A DNA stretch of 64,000 nt, taken from an uncultured Saprospiraceae bacterium. GTDB lineage: Bacteria > Bacteroidota > Bacteroidia > Chitinophagales > Saprospiraceae. Shown here one piece after another: positions 19,518 through 64,000 of this stretch. The position numbers were made by a program, and so were the translations under genes. A model generated the notes under the pieces. That model was not told where the DNA came from. It did no database searches and saw nothing but the letters and a program-made list of their open reading frames with translations. The stretch's first letter is position 1; each line of letters starts with the position of its first letter. The DNA is taken from contig CALIAU010000008.1 in assembly GCA_938045585.1 (NCBI GenBank), forward strand, positions 1 to 64,000. The letters are read 5' to 3'.

Positions 19518-20549
19518 CTAAATGACACCCTGTTTTATAAGACGGTCAATTGTTTCTTTCTGAACATCTATAAATCGTTTCTTATCTTTCTCTCCTTGTG
19601 CAAAAAGATTGGATGGATAGTGCATGTGCTCTGCATAAGACTGTGCGTATAAGCCAAAACGTTGGCGGGCAATATAATTTTTCATAGACACTTGCGTGCG
19701 ATAATGGCGCAGTGCATCTATATGAATGTAGGCATTAGCAACAATACTTTCTCCTGTATCCGCTTTCGCCAATAAGTGCCCCTCATAATGTACGATCTGC
19801 GATGCACCATCTGTACTATTTTCTAGAACACCTATATTTTTAATTCCTGCTGAATTTGCAGAAACCACATAGGCCATATTTTCGATGGCTCTTGCCTGCT
19901 TCGCTATATTTTTTTTACTTGGGATTGGACTAGCTATTTCTGAGGAAGAATGCAGAAATACTTCTGCACCACGCATCATCAGACAGCGTGCAACTTCTGG
20001 ATAAAGTATTTCTTCTGAAGCAATACAAGCAAGACGCCCCAAACTTGTGTCGGCAACAGGAAACAAATACTCGTAACCGTAGATTTTTATGTAATCTTCA
20101 TAGACATCAAAGGGCGTGGGCGAATACATAGAATTAAGTCTACGATAGTTTAGTATCATCTCTCCATTATCATCAATGATGAAACTACTCTGAAAAAAAA
20201 GTTCTGGAAAATTGGGGTCTTTCTCATAGTAATTACCCGAAAAAAAAACACCAATTTGTTTACATAACTCTCCTATCTTTTGAAAAATTATATCATCCTT
20301 TTCTAAACAAGCTTTTTCTCTCCATTCTTGAATATTTTCTCTGGCAGGAAAACTTGTCATAAAATATTCTGGCACCACGATCAGCTTGACACCGCTGCCT
20401 AAAAATTTCTTCGATGCGAACATTTGTTGACCAAGCCTTTGTATTTGTGTTCCTATCTGCGCAAGAACTTCATCCCTACTCTTAAGAGGATTTACTCCTT
20501 CACAACTTAGTTGCATCGCCAACGCTATATACGGTTCCACCTTAGCCAT
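19518..20549 (-). CDS. Nitrilase-superfamily protein with altered catalytic residues
   Basis: The 343-residue protein has the nitrilase (C-N hydrolase) fold. E61 in IVVPEYF matches the catalytic Glu. The block GEMILNYRRLNS carries Arg137 where the catalytic Lys normally sits. The block GRLACIASEEILYPE places Ser178 where the nucleophilic Cys is expected, counted back from the conserved YPE; the nearest Cys is three residues earlier (C175). So either chemistry differs or it is a binding protein. It is the last gene of the MDR-VOC-MarR operon, 3 bp after the regulator, which suggests action on the same substrate or inducer. The common annotation would be amidohydrolase or carbon-nitrogen hydrolase; activity is uncertain. 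Confidence 0.75.
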   Translation of the reverse strand: MAKVEPYIALAMQLSCEGVNPLKSRDEVLAQIGTQIQRLGQQMFASKKFLGSGVKLIVVPEYFMTSFPARENIQEWREKACLEKDDIIFQKIGELCKQIGVFFSGNYYEKDPNFPELFFQSSFIIDDNGEMILNYRRLNSMYSPTPFDVYEDYIKIYGYEYLFPVADTSLGRLACIASEEILYPEVARCLMMRGAEVFLHSSSEIASPIPSKKNIAKQARAIENMAYVVSANSAGIKNIGVLENSTDGASQIVHYEGHLLAKADTGESIVANAYIHIDALRHYRTQVSMKNYIARQRFGLYAQSYAEHMHYPSNLFAQGEKDKKRFIDVQKETIDRLIKQGVI

Positions 20550-20552
20550 TAT

Positions 20553-21041
20553 CTATCCATTTATTTTTTGCACATTCTCCGTGCACTTTTGTAAGTATCT
20601 TAAAAATTCAGCCTTTTCTTTATTTTTTAGTCCTTTAAGCATCGCAGCATTCGAACTTAGACGCTCTGATTGCATACTAGCAATTAACTTTTCTCCTTTT
20701 GGCGTTAACATTAATCGTTTCTTTCTTCTATCTTGATCATCTTCAAACTGCTTCAATAGCTTCTTCTCCATAAGTACCGTAAGTAGATTAGTAATATTCG
20801 CTCTTGTGACACCTAGTGAATCAGCTAGCTCAGATGCCATCATCGGTTTATCGTGTTTTTCACGAATAAAATAAGGTAAATTGGGATCCTTTGCTAAATG
20901 AATTAATATGACCCATTGCTGATTCGTAAGTCCTCTTTCGCTTACAAATTCTATATTTTTCTTAATAAGTAATACGGCAGTTTCGTAAATGCTTAGAAGA
21001 ATAGATGTATCTAAGTTTTTCTCAATCATAGTGGTACGCAT
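20553..21041 (-). CDS. MarR-family transcriptional regulator
   Basis: A 162-residue winged-helix protein. Helices around ILLSIYETAVLLIKKN form the dimer region. The DNA-binding part has MMASELADSLGVTRANITNLLTVLMEKKLLKQFEDDQDRRKKRLMLTPKGEKL, with the conserved wing DQDRRKKRLMLT. The start ATG overlaps the stop of the upstream gene as TAATG, and a second ATG lies five codons later. MarR proteins bind short palindromes as dimers and are released by small-molecule ligands. The operon promoter region carries a palindrome at 23217-23239 with relatives at three more places in the island, so I infer that this protein controls itself and the island. Confidence 0.9.
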   Translation of the reverse strand: MRTTMIEKNLDTSILLSIYETAVLLIKKNIEFVSERGLTNQQWVILIHLAKDPNLPYFIREKHDKPMMASELADSLGVTRANITNLLTVLMEKKLLKQFEDDQDRRKKRLMLTPKGEKLIASMQSERLSSNAAMLKGLKNKEKAEFLRYLQKCTENVQKING

Positions 21042-22174
21042 TAATTTGATAACTCAACTTTTAATTCCTTAACAGGAGTATTCTTTGTACTCTTTTTTTC
21101 AATAATTTGCCAAGTTACACCAGCATTATCACTAAACACAAAAGAACGCTCATCAAATTCATTCTCAATTACAGAAGTAGCTGAAAATCCGTGGGATAAG
21201 ACATTTTGATGCACCATTTCAATTTTTGGTGTAAAAAAACTATGCATTGTTATTCCTAACTCCCCCAAACGTTGGTGCTGTGAGCGATCTAATTTATCGC
21301 CGATAGGAATAAAAAACTTAAGCTTTCCGCAAATATTGTTAGGAGATACAAATCCTTGATACCAATGACTATAACCATCCTCCATCATGAATACGGATTT
21401 GGGACCTTTCAACCAATCACCCGCTACTACTGGTTCTTTTTCTGCTTTCAAACCAAGAGCAGTACTTAAATAGGACATCTCTTCCATAGATTCTGCATGT
21501 ATAATAAAGTCATGGTGAGTAAATTCACTTGTACCTAATTTTGTTTCAGGGTCTATAGTCCCATAGCCTTCTATGTGATATCCATAGCGTTGAAAAAAGA
21601 CATGGTTGAAAAATTCGCCATAAACAGCATTTTCTCTTACAAGTACCGGTCTATTAAAAAAATCTTTTTCCCCTGTATTTAGACCAAATAAATCATCAGA
21701 AATGGGATAGGTTGGCAACCAGCTCTTCTTGTTTTCGCGTGCTGTATTAAAAATATCATAGAGCCTAAAAATATCCTCCGTTTTCATAACAGCCATCCGT
21801 TGACCAATGGTTTCTGGAGGCACATAACCAATGCCTCGTCCGAGTGGCTGCTCCCATACTAGCAATCGTATCAGGCCATGACTGTCTATATTTCCATTTT
21901 GCATACGGATCGATCGTAAGGCACTTTGGACTCCATATAATTTAAAAGCAGTTTCTTTGGAAATACGCTTGTCTTCTACAATGCTAAAACCAAAGTCGGA
22001 AAAATACCGAATGCCATAGTCTGCATCCGCCACCGCTGTGACAACCTCGTATACACCACTAATCCCAGTATCAGGAAGGCTCTGCTGAGCTAAAAGAAGG
22101 CTCTGCTGAGCTAAAAGTCCAGGATTGCCTCCCAGAAAAAATATCCATATAAAAAGTGTTACAATCTGTTTCAT
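21041..22174 (-). CDS. Exported VOC-like (glyoxalase-fold) protein
   Basis: A 377-residue protein with a signal peptide (MKQIVTLFIWIFFLGGNPGLLAQQ) and then beta-alpha-beta repeats. YEVVTAVADADYGIRYFSDFGF opens like a vicinal-oxygen-chelate module and IRLLVWEQPLGRG ends its first half. A second half begins near FTHHDFIIHAESMEEMSYL. It is a divergent relative of the other VOC proteins in the island, but exported to the periplasm. It may bind or modify the imported substrate. It overlaps the upstream MDR gene by 4 bp (ATGA) and the MarR gene by 1 bp. A 21-bp tandem duplication repeats LLLAQQS at the likely cleavage site. Enzymatic role unknown. Confidence 0.6.
   Translation of the reverse strand: MKQIVTLFIWIFFLGGNPGLLAQQSLLLAQQSLPDTGISGVYEVVTAVADADYGIRYFSDFGFSIVEDKRISKETAFKLYGVQSALRSIRMQNGNIDSHGLIRLLVWEQPLGRGIGYVPPETIGQRMAVMKTEDIFRLYDIFNTARENKKSWLPTYPISDDLFGLNTGEKDFFNRPVLVRENAVYGEFFNHVFFQRYGYHIEGYGTIDPETKLGTSEFTHHDFIIHAESMEEMSYLSTALGLKAEKEPVVAGDWLKGPKSVFMMEDGYSHWYQGFVSPNNICGKLKFFIPIGDKLDRSQHQRLGELGITMHSFFTPKIEMVHQNVLSHGFSATSVIENEFDERSFVFSDNAGVTWQIIEKKSTKNTPVKELKVELSN
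22076..22117. repeat. 21-bp perfect tandem duplication in a signal-peptide region
   Basis: AAGGCTCTGCTGAGCTAAAA plus G occurs twice head to tail (22076-22096 and 22097-22117). In the minus-strand gene it duplicates seven residues (LLLAQQS) around the predicted signal peptidase site and keeps the frame. Confidence 0.9.
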
Positions 22175-23163
22175 ACCTTTACTATTAATTTACCAAAATT
22201 ATCTCCATTAAATAGCATCTGTAGTCCTTTCGGAAAATTATCCAATCCTTCAATAATATGCTCCATCGTCTTCAGTTTAGTTGCTTCCATCCATGCTGAC
22301 ATTTCAGCAACTGCTTCTGGATATCTATCTATATAATCAAATACAATTATGCCATTTATATAACCACGTGCTGTTACAATTTTCATATAGTTTTTAGGAC
22401 CATAGAATTCTGTTTTGTTGTATTGTGATAAAGCTCCACAGATTACTACACGTGCTCCCTTTGCTAGATTAGTCAGTAAAAGGTCAAGTAAGGGACCCCC
22501 TACATTATCATAAACCACATGAATACCCTCTGGGCAGGTTTCTTTTATGCGTACTGATACATCTTCTTTTTTATAATTTATTGCATGATCAAATCCACAT
22601 TCATTTATCAGATAATTGCATTTTTCATCTGTACCTGCTGTTCCTACCACTTTACATCCCTTTATACGTGCAATTTGGCCCACAGTAGAACCTACAATAC
22701 CAGCCGCACCAGCAATAAAAACAGTCTCTTTTGCCACTGGTTTCCCTTTTTCTAAAAGCCCAAAGTAAGCTGTCATTCCAGGCATGCCTAAGATACCCAA
22801 ATAATAAGACAGCGGCGCAGATAATTCTCCCAAGGCAGTCAAACCCTTTCCATCTGATACGACATGGCTTTGTGCTCCTGACAAACCCGTCACATAGGCT
22901 CCCTCATTCCAATCTGGATGCTTTGAAGCTATTACCTGCCCCGCAGCAAACGCTCTCATTACAGCTCCTATTTCTACCCCCTTTATATAGCTTGTACCTG
23001 CATTCATCCAGCCACGCATTGCAGGATCTAACGATATATACTTATTCTCTATTAGAACTTGACCCTCTACTAATTCCGGTACTGCCACAGTTGTAATATC
23101 AAAATCTTCTGCCTGAGCCATACCCACTGGGCGTCGCTTAAGAACTACTTGTTTATTTTCCAT
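22171..23163 (-). CDS. NADP-dependent oxidoreductase, MDR (zinc-free leukotriene B4 dehydrogenase) type
   Basis: The 330-residue enzyme is of the medium-chain dehydrogenase/reductase superfamily, like prostaglandin/2-alkenal reductases that reduce the C=C bond of enones with NADPH. The N-terminus NKQVVLKRRPVGMAQAEDF and YISLDPAMRGWMN are family hallmarks. The nucleotide-binding motif is FIAGAAGIVGSTVGQIA, followed by VVYDNVGG and a C-terminal GKLIVKV. No zinc-binding cysteine set is visible. It heads the MDR-VOC-MarR-nitrilase operon, directly behind the 23217 palindrome. Confidence 0.9.
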   Translation of the reverse strand: MENKQVVLKRRPVGMAQAEDFDITTVAVPELVEGQVLIENKYISLDPAMRGWMNAGTSYIKGVEIGAVMRAFAAGQVIASKHPDWNEGAYVTGLSGAQSHVVSDGKGLTALGELSAPLSYYLGILGMPGMTAYFGLLEKGKPVAKETVFIAGAAGIVGSTVGQIARIKGCKVVGTAGTDEKCNYLINECGFDHAINYKKEDVSVRIKETCPEGIHVVYDNVGGPLLDLLLTNLAKGARVVICGALSQYNKTEFYGPKNYMKIVTARGYINGIIVFDYIDRYPEAVAEMSAWMEATKLKTMEHIIEGLDNFPKGLQMLFNGDNFGKLIVKV

Positions 23164-23259: not shown

Positions 23260-24282
23260 GTGATGATGAAATCCTACTCAATACTTCTTGGTGACAGGAA
23301 AATGCATTTTAAAGAAATGGGCTCCGGTCCTCCCATTCTTCTCCTGCATGCTTCACCTCTCAGCAGTAATTTTTTAATACCATTCATCCAAGCTCTTGCC
23401 CCTCATTTTACAGTAATTGCCCCTGATACTCCAGGGTACGGAAATTCTGAATTACTAAGCAAAACGCCCAGTTCCTTAGATGATTATATAGATAATTTTA
23501 ATCTATTTTTAATGGAGTTGGGAATCAAAAGCTGTTCCGTTTACGGTACCGCTACAGGTGCGCAGTTAGGCATTCGCTACGCACTTATGTGTCCTGAAAA
23601 AATTGATCATCTGTATCTTGACAATATTGCCCATTTTACCCCTGCTGAGCGAGAAGAGATTCTACATAATTATTTCCCTGATTTTTCACCCAAAGCTGAC
23701 GGAAGTCACCTTGATTCTATATGGCAGGTTATATTATCTATGTTTGAGTATTTCCCCTGGTGCTTTCCACGTGATGAGAATAAGATCCATACAGCTAAAC
23801 CTCCTTTGGCTGCCTATCACTCTATAATGATAGAATACCTGCGAGCAGGAAAACATTACGATATCGCGTATAGACTAGCTTTCAAACATGAAGACATCAA
23901 CAATCTCAAAGCAGTCAAAACAGCAACTAGCTTTTTTCATTGGGAAGGAAGTATTTTAGGTCCCTATATGCAACGCATTCGCGAAGCTACTCTGCCAGAA
24001 AATATACATATTATTCCCATTCCAAGAGATACTAAAGATCGCTACGGTATCATGGCTAAGTATATGCAATCCCATGCTAATGCAGTCTCATCTACCCTGA
24101 ACATCCATACCGCTAAACTACAGGAAGATGTCCAACAGAATTTGGTAGAATCTATTCCCAACCACAGTTTTCCCGAAGCACAATTAGATGGTAACTATTG
24201 GCGAAACGCTTGGAACGCCCTACCAGATTTTGGAAATCTAGAAGACAAGACTGCGGCTCTCATTTCTTGGGCAAAAAAATAA
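23260..24282 (+). CDS. Alpha/beta-hydrolase-fold protein without a Ser nucleophile
   Basis: A 340-residue protein with the fold's oxyanion segment PPILLLHASPLSSNFL, PDTPGYGNS and the nucleophile elbow as VYGTATGAQLGIRYAL. The elbow is G-T-A-T-G, so Ala98 occupies the place of the usual Ser in GxSxG. A cap region follows (about 125-215), and the C-terminal end has NHSFPEAQLDGNYWRNAW. Either it has lost hydrolase activity and acts as a binding or lyase protein, or it uses other residues. Start codons GTG 23260, ATG 23263 and ATG 23266 are consecutive, and ATG 23266 (MKSYSILLG) is as likely as the one listed. First gene of a plus-strand operon behind the 23217 operator. Confidence 0.75.
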   Translation: MMMKSYSILLGDRKMHFKEMGSGPPILLLHASPLSSNFLIPFIQALAPHFTVIAPDTPGYGNSELLSKTPSSLDDYIDNFNLFLMELGIKSCSVYGTATGAQLGIRYALMCPEKIDHLYLDNIAHFTPAEREEILHNYFPDFSPKADGSHLDSIWQVILSMFEYFPWCFPRDENKIHTAKPPLAAYHSIMIEYLRAGKHYDIAYRLAFKHEDINNLKAVKTATSFFHWEGSILGPYMQRIREATLPENIHIIPIPRDTKDRYGIMAKYMQSHANAVSSTLNIHTAKLQEDVQQNLVESIPNHSFPEAQLDGNYWRNAWNALPDFGNLEDKTAALISWAKK

Positions 24283-24288: not shown

Positions 24289-25293
24289 ATCAAAAATAAA
24301 CAGTACATAATCCAAAGTTTTTCTGATCGCATCGAAGATGCCACAACGGTTATCGAAACAGAGTTACCCAAACTAGGAGCTCAGCAGGTTCGCGTAAAAA
24401 ATATCTACGTGGGTATTAATGCCATCTATGATAGAGAATTGTATAAAGGCAAGGTACCCTATATTAACCTTAGCTTCCCGCATACCTTTGGTGTAGAAGC
24501 AACCGGAGTAATTGAAGAGATAGGGAATCAGGTCACAAATTTTAAAAAAGGAGACACAGTAGGTACCATAAAAGTAGGCACCGCCTACCAAGAATATCAG
24601 AATGTAGATGCAGCTCATCTTATTCCTTTTCCCGAGGCTACACCTGAGTATTTAACCCTGGGAACTACAGGAGTCTCCGCATATCTTGCTATTGAAAAAC
24701 TTGCTGAGATACAAAATGGAGAAACTGTTGTTATATCAGCTGCAGCGGGAGGACTAGGACATATTCTTGTCCAATTATGTAAGAAAAAAGGAGCAAAGAT
24801 AGTTGCTATTTGTGGTACAGATAAGAAGTGCGCGATGCTAGAGTCTTTAGGCTGCTGTGATCATATAATTCAACATAGAAGACAGGATGTTGACGCCGTT
24901 TTAAGCAAGGAATACGGAGGGAAGATTGATGTAGCAATAGATTCTGTAGGACGACATATGTTTGACAGCTTTTTAAAAAACATAGCACCTAAAGGAAGAC
25001 TCATTGTAGTTGGCCTAGCAAGCGAACTCTCTGACTCGGACTTTGAGTCCAGGCAAGCACCACGCGTCTACCAATCTATTTATTGGAAAGGGGCATCCGT
25101 ACGCTGTTTCATGAACCATTTATATAAGCAAGAGCATACTAAAGCAAGAGAGCATCTCTTTACTTTATATCAAAAAAAATTACTTCAAATCAAGATTGAC
25201 TCCACTGTTTTTAAAGGAATTGAAGCTATTAAAACAGCTTCACAATATCTTTTAGCTGGTAAGAGTTGTGGAAAACTAATAGTCGAATTATAA
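24289..25293 (+). CDS. Quinone-oxidoreductase-like MDR enzyme with no standard start codon
   Basis: The protein is a zinc-free MDR oxidoreductase (QOR/zeta-crystallin type, NADPH). It carries INAIYDRELYKGK, FPHTFGVEATGVIEEIG, the nucleotide motif VISAAAGGLGHILVQLCK, VAIDSVG and GKLIVEL. The GroES-like start is homologous from about KNKQYIIQSFSDRIEDATT, but between the upstream stop TAA (24280-24282, same frame) and GTG at 24409 there is no ATG, GTG or TTG. Starting at 24409 would delete about 40 conserved residues. I place the start at ATC 24289; ACG at 24286 is an alternative. Readthrough of the upstream stop would fuse it in frame to the hydrolase-fold protein. Confidence 0.7.
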   Translation: MKNKQYIIQSFSDRIEDATTVIETELPKLGAQQVRVKNIYVGINAIYDRELYKGKVPYINLSFPHTFGVEATGVIEEIGNQVTNFKKGDTVGTIKVGTAYQEYQNVDAAHLIPFPEATPEYLTLGTTGVSAYLAIEKLAEIQNGETVVISAAAGGLGHILVQLCKKKGAKIVAICGTDKKCAMLESLGCCDHIIQHRRQDVDAVLSKEYGGKIDVAIDSVGRHMFDSFLKNIAPKGRLIVVGLASELSDSDFESRQAPRVYQSIYWKGASVRCFMNHLYKQEHTKAREHLFTLYQKKLLQIKIDSTVFKGIEAIKTASQYLLAGKSCGKLIVEL

Positions 25294-25366: not shown

Positions 25367-26617
25367 ATGGAAAAAGGTATGGGCGAATTTAAGTACGGAT
25401 GGCCAGTCGTGGGATCTTCTGCAATCGGTATAGGACTAGGCATGTCTCCCCTTCCTTTTTATACAATTGGAGTCTTCGTCGCTCCCTTCATGGAAGAGTT
25501 TGGTTGGGGTGTTCAGGATGTCATGTTAGCCCTCAGTTTCTTCTCCTTCACAGCCCTTTTTACAAGTCCACTTATTGGAGTCATCACGGATAGAATAGGC
25601 GTACGAAAAACTGTTCTTATTTCAATTGTAACATTTGGACTTTCTTTTATGGCTTTTTCATTAAATAATGGATCCAAAACTCTATACATCGCCCTCTGGA
25701 TACTGCTCGCTTTTTTTGGCGCAGGCACTCTACCTATTACATGGACACGAGCAATTAATAGATGGTTTTCTAAGAAGCGTGGCCTTGCCCTAGGTCTTTC
25801 ACTACTAGGGACAGGCCTTTTCGGTGCCTTCGCTAAATTATATGCCGCCTACTTTATAGAAATGTATGGATGGCGCACAGCCTATATTGCACTTGCACTA
25901 CTTCCACTACTTATTTCATTACCGCTCGCCTTTTTCTTTTTTAGAGACACAGACGATCCTAAGGTTGCTGATAAGGTAAAACGGATGCATGCAGAATTTG
26001 GATCTAAAAATGCTAACTCTATTGCTAACAATGCAGGAGCCACACTTAAAGAAGCATTAAAAGACTATCGATTTTGGCTGCTTGCACTATCTTTTATTCC
26101 TATTTCTTTTGCTATCGGCGGTCCCATTCCTAATCTCGAAAAAATCCTGGACACGAAGGGATTTATGCGTGCAGACACAGTACTTCTAGCTAGTATCGTA
26201 GGTTATTCTGTTATTGTTGGTCGTTTGCTTGGAGGCTACTTGATAGATAAAATCTGGGCTCCAGGGGTTGCCTTCGTTATGTTTATTATTCCAGTCTTAG
26301 CCTGTTTAATATTTCGCCAACCTGAGTTGAGTTACACTATGGCGCTCGTTGCAATTGCCATTATTGGATTTGCTGCAGGTGTAGAATACGACCTCATGGC
26401 CTTTCTTGTATCTAAGTATTTTGGCTTAAAGAATTACTCTGCGATTTATGGTATGCTATATGGTTTTTTCGCAATTGGTGCAGGATTTGGACCCTATATT
26501 TTCGGAAAATCATATGCAGTTACAGGTAGCTATACAACTATTTTTGGCTATGCAGCAGTAGCCTTTGTAGTCGGTGCTCTGCCATTACTTTTTCTAGGTA
26601 AATACCAATATGATTAG
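25367..26617 (+). CDS. MFS transporter (monocarboxylate/oxalate-formate antiporter-like)
   Basis: A 416-residue inner-membrane permease with 12 hydrophobic segments. The loop motif GVITDRIGVRKTVL follows helix 2, RAINRWFSKKRGLALGLSLLGTG lies around helices 4-5, and SKYFGLKNYSAIYGMLYGFFAIGAGFGPYIFG lies in the second half, as in the oxalate/formate and monocarboxylate group. It ends the operon with the hydrolase-fold and MDR genes. The cargo is probably an organic acid intermediate or the island's substrate, but specificity cannot be read. Confidence 0.88.
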   Translation: MEKGMGEFKYGWPVVGSSAIGIGLGMSPLPFYTIGVFVAPFMEEFGWGVQDVMLALSFFSFTALFTSPLIGVITDRIGVRKTVLISIVTFGLSFMAFSLNNGSKTLYIALWILLAFFGAGTLPITWTRAINRWFSKKRGLALGLSLLGTGLFGAFAKLYAAYFIEMYGWRTAYIALALLPLLISLPLAFFFFRDTDDPKVADKVKRMHAEFGSKNANSIANNAGATLKEALKDYRFWLLALSFIPISFAIGGPIPNLEKILDTKGFMRADTVLLASIVGYSVIVGRLLGGYLIDKIWAPGVAFVMFIIPVLACLIFRQPELSYTMALVAIAIIGFAAGVEYDLMAFLVSKYFGLKNYSAIYGMLYGFFAIGAGFGPYIFGKSYAVTGSYTTIFGYAAVAFVVGALPLLFLGKYQYD

Positions 26618-52376: not shown

Positions 52377-52889
52377 ATGGATCTTAAAGTATTTCCAAAA
52401 CACACAGGCGTCTGGGAAGGTACATACAAACGAATTAATCCAGACGGAAGCCTTCGGGATGCATGGAAATGTAGACTTTCTGTACGATTTGAAGGAGCAA
52501 ATAAATACCACCAAGTAAACGAATACATGTGGGATGATGGGCACTACGAATGCTTAGATTTTGGCGTATGTGCATTCAATGATAAGGGAGAACTCATCTT
52601 TGATAATCCACGTATTCTTGGAAAAGCATGGGAGACGCAGAATAGTATCGTCTTACATTGGAGCTACAAGGATCGACCCGGTTCCAAACTCTATGAAATT
52701 ATTGACCTAATCGGTCCTAAAGAGGAACATAGAATTCGCGTTTGGAAATGGTCTCAGAATGATGAATTTCAAGGCCTTACTATGATAGATGAACGCAAAG
52801 TTAAAACCGTTGAAGAAATTGATCCTGCATTCTGGGCAAATTTACCTAACACAAGAACAAACGGTCAAGCTTCCAGATCAGATAAATAA
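52377..52889 (+). CDS. Lipocalin-like (DUF3598-like) protein
   Basis: About 170 residues from ATG 52377. The open frame extends upstream to 52323, but the extra 18 residues lie in the leader and look non-coding. MDLKVFPKHTGVWEGTYKRI, YHQVNEYMWDDGHYECLDFGV, then FDNPRILGKAWETQNSIVLHW and LYEIIDLIGP form a pattern of beta strands as in small ligand-binding barrels; it resembles DUF3598, a group common in cyanobacteria. It is cytoplasmic, 13 bp upstream of the dehydratase large subunit. Ligand unknown. Confidence 0.6.
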   Translation: MDLKVFPKHTGVWEGTYKRINPDGSLRDAWKCRLSVRFEGANKYHQVNEYMWDDGHYECLDFGVCAFNDKGELIFDNPRILGKAWETQNSIVLHWSYKDRPGSKLYEIIDLIGPKEEHRIRVWKWSQNDEFQGLTMIDERKVKTVEEIDPAFWANLPNTRTNGQASRSDK

Positions 52890-56824: not shown

Positions 56825-57136
56825 ATGGCATCATTAGTAGTTTTATTTAATTTAAAAGACAAAGCAGCAAAACAAGCTTATGAAAAATGGGCACAAACCA
56901 CTGACGTTCCTACGGTTAAAGCCTTAGTTTCTATTGATGACTTTCGTGTCTACAGACTAAATAGTATGATGGGAACAGAAGCTGCTCCACCCTATGAATA
57001 TTGCGAAGTTATTGATATAAATGACATGGATAAATTTGGTCAGGAGGTAGCCACAGAAACTATGCAGCGAGTGGCTGGAGAATTCCAAGAATTTGCTGAC
57101 GCACCTATCTTTATTATATCTGAACAATTTGCCTAA
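56825..57136 (+). CDS. RedY/HapK-like small protein (dimeric alpha-beta barrel)
   Basis: A 103-residue protein: MASLVVLFNLKDKAAKQAYEKW, TTDVPTVKALVSIDDFRVYRL, GTEAAPPYEYCEVIDINDMDKFGQEV and a C-terminal FADAPIFIISEQF. The pattern matches the group named after RedY/HapK of prodiginine (tripyrrole) gene clusters, which have the dimeric alpha-beta barrel (EthD-like) fold. Function in that group is not settled. Its occurrence among ring-opening enzymes is of interest for a pyrrole-related substrate. 5 bp after the aldolase gene and 1 bp before the SDR gene. Confidence 0.65.
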   Translation: MASLVVLFNLKDKAAKQAYEKWAQTTDVPTVKALVSIDDFRVYRLNSMMGTEAAPPYEYCEVIDINDMDKFGQEVATETMQRVAGEFQEFADAPIFIISEQFA

Positions 57137-57137
57137 A

Positions 57138-57974
57138 ATGAAAGGACTAAAAGGAAAAACAGCAATTATTACAGGCTCAGGTAGAAAAGGTGGCATAGGT
57201 GAAGCAATTGCTATGGCTCTTGCTAAACATGGATGCAATGTTGTAATCTCGGACATTGGTGAGCCTAAAGGTAAAGAGTTTTCCAAGGACCATGTAGGCA
57301 CCTCTAGTGAAATGAGACAAATAGTTCGTGAAATAAATAAGCTAAAAAAAGGGAAAGCTACAGCAATTCCCTGTGATGTGAGAAATGAAAAAGCTGTATC
57401 TGATATGCTTAAAAAGACAGTCAAAAAATTTGGCAGTATGGATATCATGGTCAACAATGCTGGTGTGGGTTACATTATGGAACCATTCACTGAATTCAAA
57501 GAAAAAAGTTGGAATGCAGTACTTGATGTGAACTTAAAAGGTGCCTTCCTGTGCTCAAAGCATGGTGCCATCCAAATGCAAAAACAAGGTAAAGGTGGAT
57601 CTATAATCAACATCGCTAGCCAAGCCGCAAAATCAGGCTTCCCCTTTGCTGCAGCATACACCGCTTCCAAGCATGGCATGATAGGACTGACAAGGTCTAA
57701 CGCTGTAGAACTGGGTAAAGATAAAATCAGAGTAAATGCAGTATGTCCCAATCATATCACTACTGGATTAGGCCATTGGCAGAATAAATTTTTCAGTGAA
57801 AAACTTGGCTTAAATTATGACGACTACCTCCAAGGAATAAAAGATAAAAACCCGCTTGGTCGTACAGGACTAGTACAAGACATTGCTAATGCAGTCTGCT
57901 TTTTGGCGTCAGATCATGCCTCCTATATCACAGGGGAAGCAATGAACGTAAGTGGTGGTGAAGAATACCACTAA
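57138..57974 (+). CDS. Short-chain dehydrogenase/reductase (SDR)
   Basis: About 278 residues from ATG 57138 (MKGLKGKTAIITG). The frame is open from 57093, but that would overlap the preceding gene. The cofactor motif TGSGRKGGIGEAIA, NNAGVG, the active-site YTASKHGMIGL (Tyr and Lys) and IRVNAVCPNHI are classical SDR. GRTGLVQDIANAVCFLASDHASYITGEAMNVSGG ends it. It oxidises or reduces a hydroxyl/keto group with NAD(P); the substrate is presumably a pathway intermediate. Confidence 0.92.
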   Translation: MKGLKGKTAIITGSGRKGGIGEAIAMALAKHGCNVVISDIGEPKGKEFSKDHVGTSSEMRQIVREINKLKKGKATAIPCDVRNEKAVSDMLKKTVKKFGSMDIMVNNAGVGYIMEPFTEFKEKSWNAVLDVNLKGAFLCSKHGAIQMQKQGKGGSIINIASQAAKSGFPFAAAYTASKHGMIGLTRSNAVELGKDKIRVNAVCPNHITTGLGHWQNKFFSEKLGLNYDDYLQGIKDKNPLGRTGLVQDIANAVCFLASDHASYITGEAMNVSGGEEYH

Positions 57975-58002: not shown

Positions 58003-60072
58003 ATCAAACTAGGTATAGACATTGGAGGTACATTTACAGACTTTGTTCTTTTTAACGACAAAGAAGAAGGACTGTATTTTAGCAAAACACTGACAACTTA
58101 TCCAGATCCAACACACGGAATCTTTACAGGTATTAAGGACATTAAAGATAGATTTAACTTTGATGTAACAGAAATCAAAAATCTTATACATGGTACTACC
58201 CTAGTTACAAATGCAATCATTGAACGTAAAGGTGCAAGAACAGGATTTATTACAACAAAGGGCTTTGAAGATGTTTTGGAAATAGCACGCGAATTACGCT
58301 ATGACATCTATGATCTTTTTTTGACAATGCCAGAACCTCTAATAGCTAGAAACCTACGATATGGTGTAGAAGAACGAGTAACAAATAAGGGCAAAGTACT
58401 TACCGAAATAAATCAAGACGACTTAAACAAAATCGCTTCCCAAATTGAAGACGAAAACTTAGAATCGGTTGGAGTTTGCCTACTTAACTCTTTTGCCAAT
58501 GTTAGCCATGAAGAAAAAGTTGGTCAATTTTTACAAGAAAAATTTCCTAATCTAGCAGTGAGTCTCTCTTCTAAAATAATGCCTGAAATTCGTGAGTACG
58601 AACGCAGTTCCGCAACAGCAATGAACGCTTATGTACAACCGCTTACCTCCTCTTATTTAAATAAACTCAAAACTGAATTAGTGAAAAAAGGCTTCGGAGG
58701 CAAACTGAACATTATGATTTCTAGTGGACGACTTACTACCATAGATGAGGCTATCAAAACACCTATTCATCTGCTTGAATCAGGTCCAGCGGGCGGATCT
58801 ATGGCAGGGGTATTTTATGGTAAATTATTTAATGAAAAAAATCTGCTTTGCTTTGACATGGGCGGTACTACAGCCAAAGCTTCTCTAATACATAATGGTG
58901 CTCCTGAGATCACAAATCACTTTGAAGCGGCTCGAGTTAAACGATTCAAGAAAGGAAGTGGACTCCCTGTTAGAATTCCCGTGATTGATATGATAGAAAT
59001 TGGTGCAGGTGGAGGCAGTATTGCACGACTAAACTCTTTAAATCTACTTACGGTTGGCCCAGAAAGTGCCTCTTCACAACCCGGCCCTGCCTGTTATAAC
59101 CTAGGAGGCGAATACCCAACTGTAACAGATGCGGATTTAGTATTAGGTTACCTAAATGCTGATTACTTTTTAGGAGGTACTATGCAATTAAATATAGAAC
59201 AAGCAAGGAAAGCAATTGATAAGCATCTTGCAGGTCCATTAGGGATTTCTATTGAAGAAGCAGCAATGGGAATCCACAAAATAGTCAACGAAAATATGGC
59301 AAATGCAGCTCGAGTACATATCCTAGAAAAAGGAATGGACCCAAGACATTTTAGCATGATTGGATTTGGCGGAGCAGGACCTGTACACGCCTTCGGCGTT
59401 GCAAAACTGATAAATTCACCTAATTTATATATACCAGTTGGTGCGGGTGTAGCATCTGCATTAGGATTCTTAGTATCTCCTATCGCCTCAGAAAAAATTC
59501 ACAGCCATATTTCTAATCTTGCAGATATGGATTGGAAGGAAGTAAATGATTTTCTTGACAACATGCAATCAGAGGGAAAGCGTTTCTTAAAGAAATATGG
59601 GAATAAAAACTCTAGTATACATATCGATAGAATTGTTGACATGCGATATGAAGGCCAGGGACACGAAATTACTATACATCTTCCTGAAGGTCCTCTTTCA
59701 GAAAAACACTTGAGTGAAATAAAAGACCGATTCCAAAAAGAATATACATTCAAATACAATAGATCCATAGAGGGTATTGAAATCCAAACGGTCACCTGGC
59801 GTGTACAAGTAAAGGGAGAAATCCCCAGTATTGATGTCGTTCAAAAAGATATAACCTACAAAAATTCAACTCCATTAAAAGGAACCCGTAAAGTATTTTT
59901 TGAAGAAACAGGCTACCTTGATTGTCCAGTCTATGATAGGTACAATTTTGAAAAAAATGTAACACTCTTAGGACCTATGATAATTGAAGAAAAAGAAAGT
60001 ACAACTGTAATTGGAATTAATAGTGAAGTGGAAGTAGATACTATAGGAAACATAAAAATAAAATTACTTTGA
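58003..60072 (+). CDS. hyuA: Hydantoinase/oxoprolinase A subunit (HyuA), no standard start codon
   Basis: The A subunit of ATP-dependent hydantoinase/oxoprolinase enzymes, which open lactam or hydantoin rings using ATP, with the B subunit at 61547. The ASKHA phosphate motif KLGIDIGGTFTDFVLFND lies at the very N-terminus. HGTTLVTNAIIERKG, CFDMGGTTAKASLI, GAGGGSIARL and GFGGAGPVHAFGVA follow. The conserved start requires translation from about 58003, but no ATG, GTG or TTG occurs between the in-frame TAA at 57985-57987 and TTG at 58276. ATC at 58003 (giving M-KLGIDIGG) or ATA at 57997 must serve, or the start codon has been lost. About 689 residues, normal length. Confidence 0.85.
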   Translation: MKLGIDIGGTFTDFVLFNDKEEGLYFSKTLTTYPDPTHGIFTGIKDIKDRFNFDVTEIKNLIHGTTLVTNAIIERKGARTGFITTKGFEDVLEIARELRYDIYDLFLTMPEPLIARNLRYGVEERVTNKGKVLTEINQDDLNKIASQIEDENLESVGVCLLNSFANVSHEEKVGQFLQEKFPNLAVSLSSKIMPEIREYERSSATAMNAYVQPLTSSYLNKLKTELVKKGFGGKLNIMISSGRLTTIDEAIKTPIHLLESGPAGGSMAGVFYGKLFNEKNLLCFDMGGTTAKASLIHNGAPEITNHFEAARVKRFKKGSGLPVRIPVIDMIEIGAGGGSIARLNSLNLLTVGPESASSQPGPACYNLGGEYPTVTDADLVLGYLNADYFLGGTMQLNIEQARKAIDKHLAGPLGISIEEAAMGIHKIVNENMANAARVHILEKGMDPRHFSMIGFGGAGPVHAFGVAKLINSPNLYIPVGAGVASALGFLVSPIASEKIHSHISNLADMDWKEVNDFLDNMQSEGKRFLKKYGNKNSSIHIDRIVDMRYEGQGHEITIHLPEGPLSEKHLSEIKDRFQKEYTFKYNRSIEGIEIQTVTWRVQVKGEIPSIDVVQKDITYKNSTPLKGTRKVFFEETGYLDCPVYDRYNFEKNVTLLGPMIIEEKESTTVIGINSEVEVDTIGNIKIKLL

Positions 60073-61499
60073 AAAAATCCTTCGACATACTAATTGTAGG
60101 TGCAGGCACTGCTGGCATGGCATGTGCCATCGAAGCAGCACAAAGAGGCTTGTCCGTTGGTATAGTTGAAAAATCGGATCATATTGGTGGTGCTATGCAT
60201 TGGTCTGGAGGCCATATGAGCGGGGGTGGCACAGCCTTACAAAAAAGAAAAGGGATCGATGATAGTCCAGAAGACCATTACAAAGACATATTACGCATCA
60301 GCAAGGGTACAGGAGACCTTAAGCTGATACAAAAAGCCGTACAAGAAGCACCAAAGACGATTGATTGGTTAGATGAGCATGGTTTTGAATTTGCTCCTGA
60401 AGCGCCCAGAATTATTTATGGACACGTAGCCTACACTAAGCCCAGAACCCAGTATGGAATAGACAAAGCAAAATCAATCCTCAAGGTGATGCAAACGATG
60501 TGGGATTCCCTTAAAGGGAATATCGAATGCTTCCTGGAGCATCCCGTTTTAGGAATAGATCAAGTCAATGGAAAATGGACACGTATCGTTTGCTCTACGT
60601 ATGAAGGGCAACTTGTTCTTACAGGGGATTACCTAGTTATAACAACAGGTGGCTATGGAAGTAATCCAGACTATTTCAGAGCAAAGCATCCGGATACACC
60701 TCTTATGAGCTCCACCTACCCTACTGCTACAGGGGACGGACACAAAATGCTTGAAGAAAATAAAGGGATGTTTCGAATGGCAGACTTACATCTTCCAAGT
60801 TTGGGTGGCATGGAATTAGAACCTGGAACAGGACGGTGCAATTTCAATGAAGCTTGGGCGATGGTTATGACATCCATATATAGAAGACCAAGAGACATTT
60901 ATGTAAACTTAGATGGCCATCGTTTTATGAATGAAGACGAGACAGATGCAGATATACGCGAACGTCATGTTACCAAACAAAAATCCTGGCGTTTCTGGGT
61001 AATCTTTGATGAAGAAGGACTCATGGCAAAAGATGAAAATGGAAATGAAAACCCAATTGTAATAGGCTGGACAATTGAACAAATAAAAAAAGAAGCGCAG
61101 CGCGGTAAATGCATCTTTAAAGCACATAGCATTGAAGGACTAGCAGAAAGTACAAAACTGCCTTATGAAACTCTATCGCGTACCATAGCAAACTTTAATC
61201 GCTATGTAGACCAAGGCGAAGATCCCGACTTCAATAGAGAACACCTAGAATATAAACTAAGTACAGCCCCCTACTACGCAATTCTTGTCTATGCCTCCGT
61301 CCTAGTAAGCTTCGGTGGCATCGCTGTCAATTCTGATCTTCAAATATTGGACACAGATGGACAGGTACAAACAGGAATTTATGGGGCAGGAGAATTATTA
61401 GGCTTAGGTGCATTAAGTGGAAACGCCTTTTGTAGTGGTATGGCTATAACGCCTGCCCTGAGTTTTGGAAGAATACTTGGACAGAGCCTAGGCAAATAA
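60069..61499 (+). CDS. FAD-dependent oxidoreductase, fumarate reductase/ketosteroid dehydrogenase-like
   Basis: A 476-residue FAD_binding_2 flavoprotein. DILIVGAGTAGMACAIEAAQRGLSVGIVEKSDHIGGAMHWSGGHMSGGG is the FAD site. ATGDGHKML and the C-terminal TGIYGAGELLGLGALSGNAFCSGMAITPALSFGRILG complete the family pattern. It should introduce or reduce a C=C bond next to a carbonyl or carboxylate. It starts with TTG overlapping the hyuA stop (TTGA), so it is translationally coupled and separates hyuA from hyuB. No leader is seen, so it is cytoplasmic. Confidence 0.88.
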   Translation: MKKSFDILIVGAGTAGMACAIEAAQRGLSVGIVEKSDHIGGAMHWSGGHMSGGGTALQKRKGIDDSPEDHYKDILRISKGTGDLKLIQKAVQEAPKTIDWLDEHGFEFAPEAPRIIYGHVAYTKPRTQYGIDKAKSILKVMQTMWDSLKGNIECFLEHPVLGIDQVNGKWTRIVCSTYEGQLVLTGDYLVITTGGYGSNPDYFRAKHPDTPLMSSTYPTATGDGHKMLEENKGMFRMADLHLPSLGGMELEPGTGRCNFNEAWAMVMTSIYRRPRDIYVNLDGHRFMNEDETDADIRERHVTKQKSWRFWVIFDEEGLMAKDENGNENPIVIGWTIEQIKKEAQRGKCIFKAHSIEGLAESTKLPYETLSRTIANFNRYVDQGEDPDFNREHLEYKLSTAPYYAILVYASVLVSFGGIAVNSDLQILDTDGQVQTGIYGAGELLGLGALSGNAFCSGMAITPALSFGRILGQSLGK

Positions 61500-61503
61500 A
61501 TGC

Positions 61504-61530
61504 AAATTAGTTAACTTTGTTAACTAATTT
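61504..61530. promoter_or_regulatory. Putative MarR operator, copy 4 (perfect 12-bp arms)
   Basis: AAATTAGTTAAC-TTT-GTTAACTAATTT is a perfect 27-bp palindrome, the best copy in the window. It lies in the 47-bp gap between the flavoprotein stop and the hyuB GTG start, 17 bp before the latter. Because it is inside an apparently continuous operon, it implies an internal regulated promoter or a roadblock at hyuB. Confidence 0.8.
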
Positions 61531-61546
61531 TACAATACGTAAAAAC

Positions 61547-63166
61547 GTGAGAAAGACCAAAACAAAATTTGATTCAATTAGTCTATCCATCTTGTGGGCA
61601 AGACTGATAAGTATCGTAGATGAGGCGGGTACTACCCTGCAACGGACCTCCTTTTCTACAGTAACTAGGGAATCAAATGATTTCGCCGTAGTACTAATGG
61701 ATAGAGATGGCAGATCAATCGCCCAATCCAGTATTTCCGTGCCTTCTTTTTTAGGTGTTTTACCTATTCTCACTAAAGCCTTATTAAAAGATTATTTTTC
61801 GCACGATGCATGGGAAGAAGGGGATGTAGTAATGACTAATGACCCATGGCTCTGTGCAGGACACAAACCTGATATTGGAATTGTTTCTCCTATTTTTCAC
61901 CAAAACGAGCTAATTGGTTTCATTGGCACAATCGCACATTCGCCCGACATGGGAGGCGTACTTTGGGGTGCAGGGTCTAGAGATCTATATGAAGAAGGAC
62001 TAATGGTTCCTCCTACCAAACTTATGCAGGCTGGCGTTCCTAACCTAACCTTGTTTAATATTTTGGAAGCCAACGTTAGAGCCCCCATGCAAACTATAGG
62101 TGACATCAAAGCGCAAATAGCAGCAAATGATCAAGGAATCCGTTCTCTCGCAAAACTGATGGAAGAAAATAATCTTACCGATTTACAAGACTTAGCAGAT
62201 GTCATTATTGATAATACAGAAGAGTCTATGCGAAAAGCATTGGCAGCTGCCCCCGATGGCACATTTACCTATAGTTATGACACAGATGGTGACGGCAAAG
62301 GCAATCCTTGTCATTTTGAAATTGCAATAGAAATACAAGGAGACGAAATTTTGGTTGACTATGCAGGTACCTCAGATGCCCACCCTTTAAGCATTAATGC
62401 AGTCTTAAACTATACCTTCGCTTACACAGCCTATCCTATTAAATGTGCTTTTAACCCAGAAATCCCAAATAATGATGGCGCATTTTATCCTATAAAAGTC
62501 ATTGCGCCTGAAGGCTGTCTAGTCAATGCACAAAAACCTGTTCCCTTGGGTGCGCGGAATATCACTGGCAACATGCTACATTCTGTTGTATTCGGTGCAC
62601 TCGCAAAAGTAATTCCTAACAAAATACAGGCGGACTGTGGCAGTGCATGCTGGTGTATTGTTTTAAACGGGACACACCACGGGAATGAATTTGTTGAATA
62701 CTTCTTCCTAAATGGTGGATATGGTGCACGTCCTCAATTAGATGGCCCACACTGCCTATCCTTCCCAACAAATGTTGCAAATGTACCCATTGAGGTTTTA
62801 GAAAATGATGTCCCCATCTTAGTTACACAAAAAGCACTCGTAAATAACTCTGCAGGAAATGGACAGTATAGAGGTGGCTTAGGTCAAATATTTGGATTCA
62901 AAAATATTGGTGAAAAAGATCTCAACATATCCATCCTTGCAGAAAAAACTGTCTCAAACGCTAAAGGACTACTCGGTGGAGAAGATGGTGCGCAAGGTAA
63001 GGTCGAAATTATTCCTCATAGAGACTTTCCTTCTAAAGGCCTTGACAAATTAAAACCCGGTGAAGAACTCATTCTTACCCTCCCTGGTGGCGCAGGATAT
63101 GGGCCACCATCCAAACGAGACAAAACATTAATTGAACGAGATCGTTTATTAAAGTATATTGATTAA
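61547..63166 (+). CDS. hyuB: Hydantoinase/oxoprolinase B subunit (HyuB)
   Basis: About 539 residues from GTG 61547. The frame is open from TTG 61517, but that codon lies inside the operator palindrome. FDSISLSILWARLISIVDEAGTTLQRTSFSTVTRESNDF is the HyuB start, followed by NDPWLCAGHKPDIGIVSPIF, GMGG-type block AHSPDMGGVLWGAGSRDLYEEGL, PVPLGARNITGNML and a C-terminal LTLPGGAGYGPPSKRD. It forms the catalytic complex with HyuA for ATP-driven lactam or hydantoin opening. Length is slightly below the family's usual 550-600. Confidence 0.9.
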   Translation: MRKTKTKFDSISLSILWARLISIVDEAGTTLQRTSFSTVTRESNDFAVVLMDRDGRSIAQSSISVPSFLGVLPILTKALLKDYFSHDAWEEGDVVMTNDPWLCAGHKPDIGIVSPIFHQNELIGFIGTIAHSPDMGGVLWGAGSRDLYEEGLMVPPTKLMQAGVPNLTLFNILEANVRAPMQTIGDIKAQIAANDQGIRSLAKLMEENNLTDLQDLADVIIDNTEESMRKALAAAPDGTFTYSYDTDGDGKGNPCHFEIAIEIQGDEILVDYAGTSDAHPLSINAVLNYTFAYTAYPIKCAFNPEIPNNDGAFYPIKVIAPEGCLVNAQKPVPLGARNITGNMLHSVVFGALAKVIPNKIQADCGSACWCIVLNGTHHGNEFVEYFFLNGGYGARPQLDGPHCLSFPTNVANVPIEVLENDVPILVTQKALVNNSAGNGQYRGGLGQIFGFKNIGEKDLNISILAEKTVSNAKGLLGGEDGAQGKVEIIPHRDFPSKGLDKLKPGEELILTLPGGAGYGPPSKRDKTLIERDRLLKYID

Positions 63167-63196
63167 CTAATAACTTTCATTTCGAAAATAAAGAAC

Positions 63197-64000
63197 ATGA
63201 CAGCTAAAAATCTTCCTCCTTCGTATGACAACATTGCACGGCATGAAGTCTTTCCTGAATTAAATCACGATGAGCGAGCACGCTATAATTTCTTAGCTAA
63301 TCTTAATAAGCATTTGGCACATGTTTCACAAGGGAATGCCATCGCTTTTGAACAAAGAGTACAACCCAAATTTAAAGAAGAACATGGTAGAGATTTTAAA
63401 ACTAAAGAAGAACTAGGAGCAGCCATGGCCAAGGACCAACACTATCAAACCTGGTCCGCACTGCGTAGGTCCACTATGGAAATGCGACAGCAGGCAGGTA
63501 GATCTATGACCTATCGACAGGCATTTGCCCTTAAGAAACGCGTAGATAAACTTAATGAAGGAAAGGATAGTTTGATTCTAGATGATTCAGTCCAAGTACC
63601 TCCCTATCTATTAGCAGTGGATAATCATCTCATGCCGGGTAGTTATCACACAGAATTGATTGAGGGAGATGTTGCAAATGCCGCAAATTATGATGGCGGT
63701 TTATTTGTAACAACAGCTGGATTACTAGGAAAATATTCTGACGGAGGAGGTGAAGCAATTGCACAATGGTTAAAAAACAATCATCCAGAATTTGCTCCTA
63801 AACGAATTCTTGACATCGGTTGTGGTATAGGTCACAATACACTTCCCATAGCCAAACACTATCCTGATGCTGAGGTTGTTGCTATTGATACAGGTAAACC
63901 TATGTTGCGCTATGGACATGCCCGCTCGGTAGCTTTAGGATACGATAATGTAAAGTTCATGCAAGCAGAGGCATCCAAACTTCCGTTTGAAGATGAATCA
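63197..64000 (+). CDS. SAM-dependent methyltransferase with a large N-terminal region (truncated by the window edge)
   Basis: The frame is open from ATG 63197 to the last base (268 codons, no stop), so the C-terminus is missing. Residues 1-150 are a helical region with no obvious domain (PPSYDNIARHEVFPELNHDERARYNFLANL). Motif I of class I methyltransferases is ILDIGCGIGHNTLPIAKHYP near residue 203, followed by VVAIDTGKPML and AEASKLPF. It lies 30 bp after hyuB, so it is probably co-transcribed. The N-terminal extension before the fold is unusually long. Confidence 0.8.
   Translation, partial: MTAKNLPPSYDNIARHEVFPELNHDERARYNFLANLNKHLAHVSQGNAIAFEQRVQPKFKEEHGRDFKTKEELGAAMAKDQHYQTWSALRRSTMEMRQQAGRSMTYRQAFALKKRVDKLNEGKDSLILDDSVQVPPYLLAVDNHLMPGSYHTELIEGDVANAANYDGGLFVTTAGLLGKYSDGGGEAIAQWLKNNHPEFAPKRILDIGCGIGHNTLPIAKHYPDAEVVAIDTGKPMLRYGHARSVALGYDNVKFMQAEASKLPFEDES

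Follow-up and report, generated by a model that had tools for sequence, protein, structure and literature searches.

A conserved island of about forty genes in a Saprospiraceae genome that looks like a pathway for opening nitrogen-containing rings and cutting branched acids

The nicotinate fermentation of Eubacterium barkeri uses a dimethylmaleate hydratase (DmdAB) followed by a dimethylmalate lyase, which belongs to the isocitrate lyase/phosphoenolpyruvate (ICL/PEP) mutase family, and the cyclic imide metabolism of Blastobacter A17p-4 comprises an imidase, a half-amidase and a D-hydantoinase. In the passages available from PMC9863593, imidases are dihydropyrimidinase (DHPase)-like and PuuE is a deacetylase-derived analogue of allantoinase; an extract of PMC11033972 describes CapAB and OplAB, relatives of HyuAB, as hydrolysing lactams. 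The subject of this study is a gene island in the window, the 64,000-base stretch that was analysed, which covers positions 1-64000 of a 115,359-base contig in the 4.3-Mb genome of an uncultured Saprospiraceae bacterium. Its roughly forty genes have the appearance of a pathway not described before, in which nitrogen-containing rings would be opened and the resulting branched acids cut; for its food, breakdown products of bile-type or chlorophyll pigments are the likeliest, though tentative, guess.

Conservation of the island and exchange of its ring-opening amidase

The island is a rare, sporadic but conserved unit. A query with LeuC1, one of its two aconitase-family large subunits, gave LeuC1-like and LeuC2-like matches together in 8 of 119 related genomes, its own among them, and none at E 1e-60 in the remaining 111, the kind of co-occurrence for which the first-pass annotation had suggested a search. 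Both subunits were also co-inherited in all five further genomes of a phylum-level sample, which brings the island genomes to 13. When 52 proteins of the contig were compared by tblastn with the neighbourhoods of the other seven island genomes among the relatives, many genes were shared, in rearranged blocks. Because the LeuC pair co-occurs in this way and gene-order blocks recur elsewhere, the island is more than a chance assembly. An alignment scan with LeuC2, one genome per species, gave at least 23 loci at 72-88% identity, followed by a gap to 47%; these loci, which include contigs of genomes G040, G041 and G396, are all from Bacteroidota or close relatives, one being a Candidatus Kapaibacterium. 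LeuD2 and HpcH lie within about 10 kb of LeuC2 at all 23, DUF3598 at 22, and HapK and SDR1 at 20. At a threshold of E 1e-40, LeuD2 is carried by six of the 395 phylum-sampled genomes (own included) and, among 395 class-sampled genomes, by its own genome only. The core in G130 and G149 lies within 40 kb and holds both LeuCD pairs, HMGL, CaiB, HpcH, HapK, SDR1 and HyuAB, together with the methyltransferase, X3, SnoaL, DUF3598, DUF1838, CpeT, TonB, MFS and amidase genes; AO1, AO2, the FAD enzyme and the MDR genes had no match in these two islands.

A related cluster spans two phyla: the same eight sphingomonad plasmids carry matches both to the methyltransferase and to SDR1, at about 50-54%. The plasmid comparison covers the stretches read, about 40-50 kb each. 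In pJE1, SDR1, HapK, the methyltransferase, X3, an FAD enzyme, an MDR gene, HyuA and HyuB are near neighbours, and CaiB, HMGL, LeuC and LeuD lie within the same 45 kb as the SDR1-HapK-methyltransferase group. The other seven stretches all have CaiB, LeuC and LeuD, and six have HMGL. The clusters of pJE1 (L170) and pTomTYG65 (L161) are mostly 96-100% identical on otherwise different plasmids, which suggests recent horizontal transfer. A second site on pSA1 carries DUF3598, DUF1838, AO1-like and LeuCD-like genes. The DUF1838 neighbourhood on a plasmid of Novosphingobium sp. P6W was discarded as a candidate island, no island genes being among its annotated features.

The predicted cyclic amidase DHP has allantoinase as its best NCBIfam model (239 bits, below the cut-off of 358), also matches hydantoinase, and has the binuclear metal ligands H62, H64, K154, H216, H274 and D347, placed by eye at the motif positions. 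It occurs in five of the 13 island genomes (G000, G033, G041, G396, G454), and a NodB-type gene, a PuuE-like polysaccharide deacetylase, occurs in seven (G015, G020, G032, G051, G130, G149, G245), six of which have two copies and G245 one, at a contig end. No island genome has both, and one, G040 (74% complete), has neither. With genomes treated as independent, exact tests gave p 0.005 for this exclusivity by genome and 0.048 by genus; one or other gene is present in 7 of the 8 island genomes among the relatives and in none of the other 111 (E 1e-40), with p 1.4e-10. In G051 an isochorismatase-NodB2-NodB1 group adjoins CaiB, the position held by DHP in the window, and in G396 DHP sits among island genes. 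The pJE1 cluster has no annotated DHPase-type gene and instead carries two PuuE-like deacetylases and an isochorismatase; the NodB pair and isochorismatase are also present in six of the other seven plasmid stretches, RL4 being the exception. DHP and the NodB-type genes are mutually exclusive replacements at one slot. This displacement is the strongest of the new evidence, since the use of two unrelated folds there speaks well for a need to open a cyclic amide-type ring.

The isochorismatase-type amidase mostly adjoins NodB-type genes, and that of G032, 66% identical to its pJE1 counterpart, adjoins DUF1838 and LeuD2. Relatives of the nitrilase-superfamily amidase CN_hydrolase were found in G033, G041, G032, G015, G130, G149, G396, G454 and G245. 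The two were considered as strict alternatives, which was rejected since both are present in G032, G015, G130 and G149. In CN_hydrolase and five island relatives, YRR was seen by eye at the position of YRK, the motif with the catalytic lysine that is usual in the nitrilase family.

Hydratase pairs, lyases and gene content

The first hydratase pair has the Fe-S cysteines and the SSRE loop: C288, C348 and C351 of LeuC1 are invariant (six rows), and LeuD1 reads NFGCGSSRE in 10 of 10 rows. In the second pair the large-subunit cysteines are present in LeuC2, but LeuD2 lacks the SSRE loop and reads NFAGGGKSIEH in 30 of 30 rows, two contigs being counted twice (L039/G040 and L060/G041). One LeuD of each loop type is found in G051, G130, G149, G245, G396 and G454, and both LeuD proteins of pJE1 have NFGCGSSRE. 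At 57 background loci with LeuC at 41-47%, the usual loop was found 45 times, the variant never and neither form 12 times. Among the residues replaced are the active serine and arginine of aconitase. The two hydratase/lyase branches of the first-pass annotation are thus present as gene pairs, but their equivalence is weakened. Because the LeuD2 loop is rewritten, the substrate of LeuC2D2 may be another one, possibly without a carboxylate group.

Both LeuC proteins of pJE1 match bacterial LeuC models, whereas those of the window match HacA/archaeal-type models, so that the hydratases differ in subfamily. In pJE1 and pTomTYG65 the second LeuCD pair adjoins an ICL/PEP mutase-family lyase. The pJE1 protein matches 2,3-dimethylmalate lyase (3fa3) with E 2e-41; it was not accepted as a proven dimethylmalate lyase, since carboxyvinyl-carboxyphosphonate phosphorylmutase, methylisocitrate lyases and petal death protein rank higher in the PDB, and its best NCBIfam model is methylisocitrate lyase (253 bits, below the cut-off of 354). 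A tblastn search with this protein at 1e-10 found nothing similar on the window contig or at the remaining Bacteroidota loci, and the lyases of the window are HpcH and HMGL in its place.

Profile searches confirmed most of the enzymes that had been read from the letters alone, namely the DHPase-type amidase, CaiB, the HMGL-like and HpcH enzymes, HyuA, HyuB, both LeuC/LeuD pairs and the two amine oxidases (Table 1). HyuB is placed here at a TTG start at 61517 rather than at 61547. The three MDR reductases, three MFS carriers and TonB receptor are open frames conserved by tblastn; these and the aldehyde dehydrogenase (ALDH) were named by eye, outside the Pfam scan. The N-termini of AO1 and AO2 appear by eye to be Tat-like and lipobox-like. 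Elements beyond the earlier list are the CpeT/CpcT protein (30236), DUF3598 (52323), two DUF1838 copies, HapK (56825), CN_hydrolase (19518), the cytochrome c (31237) and the VOC-type genes, five by Pfam and one by eye. DUF1838 was tried as an exact island marker and rejected: seven of the eight genomes that carry it among the 119 are island genomes, the incomplete G040 lacks it, and G047 has it outside an island. In G047 (L188:9712-11395) it adjoins an SDR gene and the rest of the island is absent.

The 44-kb extent first given to the island, 19518-64000, describes a conserved block that is real but continues past the window. The remainder of the methyltransferase (to contig 64384) is followed by X3 (64399), SnoaL (64733) and a BASS-type carrier (66548) conserved in two genomes; the right end lies at about contig position 65,200-67,450. 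At the left edge CN_hydrolase and the MarR gene are conserved in the compared stretches, unlike the acetyl-CoA synthetase at 17399, which had a single weak match there (23%, G041). Read by eye, bases 1-3657 encode a large secreted protein whose internal repeats are long and nearly identical. Other loci have neighbours of their own: a membrane protein and DUF3108-like pair in eight Flavobacteriaceae-type loci, also on sphingomonad plasmids, and an FGE-sulfatase-like protein adjoining island genes at L182:4756-5697 (PF03781) and L186:2047-3021 (by eye).

Table 1. Predicted genes of the island in the window, with the basis of each assignment
Feature	Position	Strand	Basis or remark
CN_hydrolase, nitrilase-superfamily amidase; candidate for the half-amide or another amide step	19518..20549	-	Pfam, 90 bits
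MarR-type regulator	20553..21041	-	By eye; conserved near CN_hydrolase
VOC1, VOC-like	21041..22174	-	By eye; no Pfam match
MDR reductase 1	22171..23163	-	By eye; conserved
Alpha/beta hydrolase	23260..24282	+	Pfam
MDR reductase 2	24409..25293	+	By eye; 43% to pJE1 counterpart
MFS carrier 1	25367..26617	+	By eye; 44% to pJE1 counterpart
VOC2	26913..27869	+	Pfam Glyoxalase
X1, divergent CpeT-family protein	27967..28713	+	Profile comparison
AO1, putative exported amine-oxidase-type flavoprotein	28751..30232	+	Pfam Amino_oxidase, 170 bits; nearest PDB entries monoamine oxidases
CpeT/CpcT-family protein, signal-peptide-like N-terminus	30236..31216	+	PF06206, E 3.6e-21
Cytochrome c lipoprotein (CSACH), possible AO1 electron acceptor	31237..31692	+	Motif
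Peroxiredoxin	31703..32161	+	By eye; kept in G020:C51 (80%) and G051:C66 (68%)
DHP, predicted cyclic amidase, proposed imidase	32366..33829	-	Amidohydro_1/3
CaiB-type CoA-transferase	33844..35022	-	CoA_transf_3, E 1.6e-108, 363 bits
CMD/AhpD-like protein	35024..35584	-	Pfam
LeuD1, canonical loop	35584..36078	-	Profile and alignment
LeuC1, aconitase-family large subunit	36075..37304	-	Profile search
HMG-CoA-lyase-like enzyme (HMGL)	37301..38209	-	NCBIfam PRK05692, 319 bits (cut-off 246)
VOC3	38210..39241	-	Pfam
VOC4	39367..40368	+	Pfam
Aldehyde dehydrogenase	40413..41825	+	By eye; conserved
VOC5	41953..42945	+	Pfam
VOC6	42957..43397	+	Pfam
MFS carrier 2	43419..44642	-	By eye; conserved
X2, possibly CpeT-like	44639..45214	-	Shares the GxxDNxxQ motif only
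MDR reductase 3	45230..46246	-	By eye; conserved
DUF1838 copy a	46247..47164	-	PF08894, 221 bits
MFS carrier 3	47315..48562	-	By eye; conserved
DUF1838 copy b, predicted mostly beta barrel	48566..49462	-	PF08894, 234 bits; model pLDDT 88.5
TonB-dependent receptor	49690..52281	+	By eye; full-length 34-44% in G033, G041, G032, G020, G015
DUF3598-like calycin barrel (likely start 52377)	52323..52889	+	Pfam DUF3598_N, 24.1 bits (cut-off 22)
LeuC2, aconitase-family large subunit	52902..54170	+	Profile search
AO2, putative exported amine-oxidase-type flavoprotein	54171..55511	+	Pfam Amino_oxidase, 143 bits
LeuD2, invariant variant loop	55521..56045	+	Alignment
HpcH/HpaI-family lyase	56058..56819	+	Pfam, 125 bits
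HapK/REDY-like protein	56825..57136	+	PF11639, E 3e-11; PDB 2jdj, E 2.4e-7
SDR1	57135..57974	+	Pfam; 51-54% on the eight sphingomonad plasmids
HyuA, ATP-dependent lactamase/hydantoinase alpha	58003..60072	+	NCBIfam caprolactamase alpha, 532 bits (cut-off 1000)
FAD dehydrogenase, flavocytochrome c/fumarate reductase-like	60069..61499	+	Profile search
HyuB, lactamase/hydantoinase beta	61517..63166	+	Pfam, 477 bits
SAM methyltransferase, N-terminal extension of about 200 residues	63197..64000, ends contig 64384	+	X3 then SnoaL downstream

Proposed route, its source and the alternatives

From the established gene content, conservation, amidase displacement and predicted folds, we infer the reactions, their order and the substrate as follows. 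The TonB receptor would import a bulky N-heterocyclic compound, which exported lipocalin-like CpeT and DUF1838 proteins may handle outside the cytoplasm and a Tat-exported flavoprotein oxidase may oxidise, passing electrons to cytochrome c. ATP-dependent HyuAB would open lactam rings, and the DHPase-type amidase, or NodB/PuuE-like enzymes in other islands, would open cyclic imides. An amidase would then free ammonia and leave alkyl-substituted maleates, which are proposed because maleimide opening and deamidation give a maleate, for which the hydratase, CoA-transferase and HMGL-like lyase would fit next. LeuC1/D1 would hydrate one alkylmaleate to a 2-hydroxy-2,3-dialkylsuccinate, CaiB would form its CoA ester, and the HMGL-like enzyme would split this into a 2-oxoacid and an acyl-CoA; LeuC2/D2 and the HpcH lyase would act on a second substrate. 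A lipoyl E2 gene lies beside the island in 11 Flavobacteriaceae-type loci (L040, L042-L047, L049, L050, L053, L066) and in G020:C89, with an AceE-like E1 (by eye) in 9 of these 12, and the two would suit removal of the 2-oxoacid product. The imide and lactam opening and alkylmaleate splitting put forward in the first-pass annotation, each step of which remains a proposal, thus gain comparative support from the amidase displacement, the isochorismatase, the ICL-family lyase and the nearness of HyuA to caprolactamase, and a course from imide through maleate and malate to a lyase is probable.

The source would be a linear tetrapyrrole or its fragments, such as bilins or chlorophyll catabolites, whose imides carry two kinds of side chain. 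The CpeT protein scores 76.3 bits with PF06206 (cut-off 21), and the island CpeT alignment matches the phycocyanobilin lyase CpcT (4o4o), its nearest solved structure, with E 1.2e-13. X1 and X2 have no Pfam match in the window even at E 10; in profile comparison X1 (5 rows) matches the island CpeT alignment (9 rows) with 99.8% probability and E 4e-29. X2 was not retained as a CpeT member (probability 12%, not significant), and the comparison of DUF3598 with CpeT gave no match. The AO1-CpeT neighbourhood recurs in G020:C51 with the cytochrome c, peroxiredoxin and X1, and AO1-CpeT also in L043 and L051. The DUF3598 model (pLDDT 94.2) resembles BFA1 (Z 16.3, root-mean-square deviation (rmsd) 2.5, 136 aligned), the DUF3598 entry 2o62 (14.9), nitrobindin (about 14) and CpeS (4tq2, 12.6). 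DUF1838 was dismissed as a bilin-binding fold: its barrel likeness is weak (best Z 9.0, rmsd 2.9, 128 residues), and outer-membrane barrels score nearly equally. Island-type hosts come from seaweed, lake water (a Lake Taihu strain) and soil. One of them, Maribacter algarum, was isolated from a red alga, a later second use of the name also denoting a Gelidium strain; strain RZ26 is, we assume, the strain of the red-alga description. The CpeT protein, X1, the DUF3598 barrel and the red-alga and lake-water hosts fit a tetrapyrrole source, for which the chances come close to even at best. Hematinic acid and maleimides are pigment products in the portions of PMC7318184 available.

Several observations weigh against this reconstruction. 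CpeT is not specific to island genomes: it occurs in 37 of 119 genomes, in 4 of 8 with the island and 33 of 111 without (p 0.25, not enriched), so it was rejected as proof of a bilin substrate, and the DUF3598 model also resembles fatty-acid-binding proteins (Z 11), a shared barrel fold that shows no ligand. CpeT/CpcT-family genes are widespread in the order, and a strong-scoring class of them (about 139-176 bits) was seen in genomes that lack the island. Neither a heme oxygenase nor any known bilin-cleaving enzyme was recognised in the scanned genes, no direct search for one being made, and the sphingomonad hosts include soil and rhizosphere strains. The same portions of PMC7318184 report hematinic acid in leaves and maleimides as not detected there. 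The oxidase step is not universal, as AO1 and AO2 had no match in the stretches read of G032, G130, G149 and G245; HyuA and HyuB are both present in the pJE1 and THN1 stretches, RL4 has HyuA alone and the other five have neither. The coexistence of CN_hydrolase and isochorismatase makes the assignment of the half-amide step ambiguous, LeuD2 lacks the usual loop, and LeuC1 lies within about 10 kb of LeuC2 at just 6 of the 23 loci, the remainder of those genomes being outside the search. The ICL-family lyase was found in pJE1 and pTomTYG65 alone, mostly 92-100% alike and hence one lineage, and the methyltransferase, X3, HapK, SnoaL and VOC genes are conserved yet have no role in the scheme. Taken together, an aerobic catabolic island that opens nitrogen rings and then cleaves alkylmaleates, with a linear tetrapyrrole or mono- or dipyrrolic fragments as the most likely source, is an even call.

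The same imide, lactam and alkylmaleate chemistry might serve another natural product, such as an alkaloid, a lactam-containing metabolite or a bisindolylmaleimide-like compound. The comparative evidence backs ring opening and the hydratase/lyase steps and says nothing on the parent compound, and the unspecific distribution of CpeT and the soil and rhizosphere hosts agree with such a source; it is nevertheless unlikely, since the island holds a calycin barrel and two proteins of the CpeT family and its hosts include one from a red alga and one from lake water. The amidases could also point to hydantoin or ureide catabolism, in which DHP or the PuuE-like enzymes open hydantoin rings, the nitrilase or isochorismatase strips the N-carbamoyl group and HyuAB is an ATP-dependent hydantoinase. 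A NodB protein matches PuuE allantoinase (3cl6, E 1.6e-25), the isochorismatase matches N-carbamoylsarcosine amidohydrolase (1nba, E 1.9e-24), DHP itself matches allantoinase and hydantoinase, and an Asp/Glu/hydantoin-racemase-family gene stands beside the cluster in pJE1 and pTomTYG65. Because displacement between AllB and PuuE is already known for allantoin itself (PMC9863593, in its passages), the ring opened here could in principle be a hydantoin. This explanation is improbable, as it leaves LeuCD, CaiB-HMGL, HpcH and the ICL-family lyase unexplained, and nothing else of purine or pyrimidine catabolism was recognised in the scanned genes, where no direct search was made.

Least probable of all is cleavage of an aromatic, terpenoid or steroid ring, with the VOC proteins as dioxygenases, HMGL/CaiB and HpcH in beta-oxidation-like or meta-cleavage-like steps and the amidases as side activities. 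It would account for the six VOC-type genes, for the 3-ketosteroid-dehydrogenase models among the lower matches of the FAD enzyme and for the MDR and ALDH genes. Yet a ring-opening amidase of either kind is present in 12 of 13 island genomes, which suggests a central role, the number of VOC genes varies (the G032 stretch matches VOC1 alone), and no aromatic dioxygenase was recognised among the scanned genes. In a marine Novosphingobium, a HapK gene that may or may not belong to such a cluster is listed as 1.9-fold higher during growth on a lignin dimer (PMC4609964); the literature search found no paper tying the gene set to a substrate.

Comparison with known systems

Chlorophyll is made and degraded on a scale of 10^12 kg yearly (PMC7318184, in part), and bacteria are reported to convert sedimentary porphyrins to single-pyrrole compounds including maleimides, no such enzymes being named in the passages of PMC8669743. 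Among the papers listed in an open-licence library on bacterial bilin, chlorophyll and alkylmaleimide breakdown, none described enzymes that act on the end products, maleimides or pyrrolinones. If the tetrapyrrole source is correct, the island names genes, hosts (including the red-alga isolate Maribacter algarum) and substrates for study. It might then, tentatively and with somewhat less than even chances, be the first bacterial route from linear tetrapyrroles, such as phycobilins or phyllobilins derived from chlorophyll together with their maleimide and pyrrolinone fragments, to central metabolism, with CpeT and calycin proteins reused to bind pigment for destruction and LeuC2D2, its active site altered, acting on a new substrate. 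Whatever the substrate, enzymology gains two new leads: unrelated ring-opening amidases that replace each other within one conserved island, and the variant LeuC2D2.

By family assignment the island resembles the route of Eubacterium barkeri in combining an aconitase-family two-subunit hydratase with a predicted alkylmalate lyase, which in one sphingomonad lineage is of the ICL/PEP mutase family. It differs in its lyases, which in the window are an HMGL-like enzyme (alongside a CoA-transferase) and an HpcH-like one, in the added imidase-type and lactamase genes, and in the altered LeuD2 loop; no mutase or nicotinate enzyme was recognised among the scanned genes, where no direct search was made. 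With the imide route of Blastobacter A17p-4 it would share a DHPase-like ring opening with an amidase next, but it would feed aconitase-family hydratases and lyases, and its amidase is interchangeable with PuuE-like genes. As in CapAB and OplAB, HyuA and HyuB are encoded together and appear to be of the two-subunit ATP-dependent type, caprolactamase alpha being the best model for HyuA; unlike CapAB, HyuA scores below the model cut-off and thus outside the equivalog family, and its hyuA is separated from hyuB by an FAD dehydrogenase gene. Finally, the island CpeT protein belongs to the same Pfam family as the CpcT/CpeT phycobilin lyases and has CpcT as its nearest solved structure, which makes bilin binding a putative function, but unlike these lyases it has a signal-peptide-like N-terminus and adjoins an oxidase.

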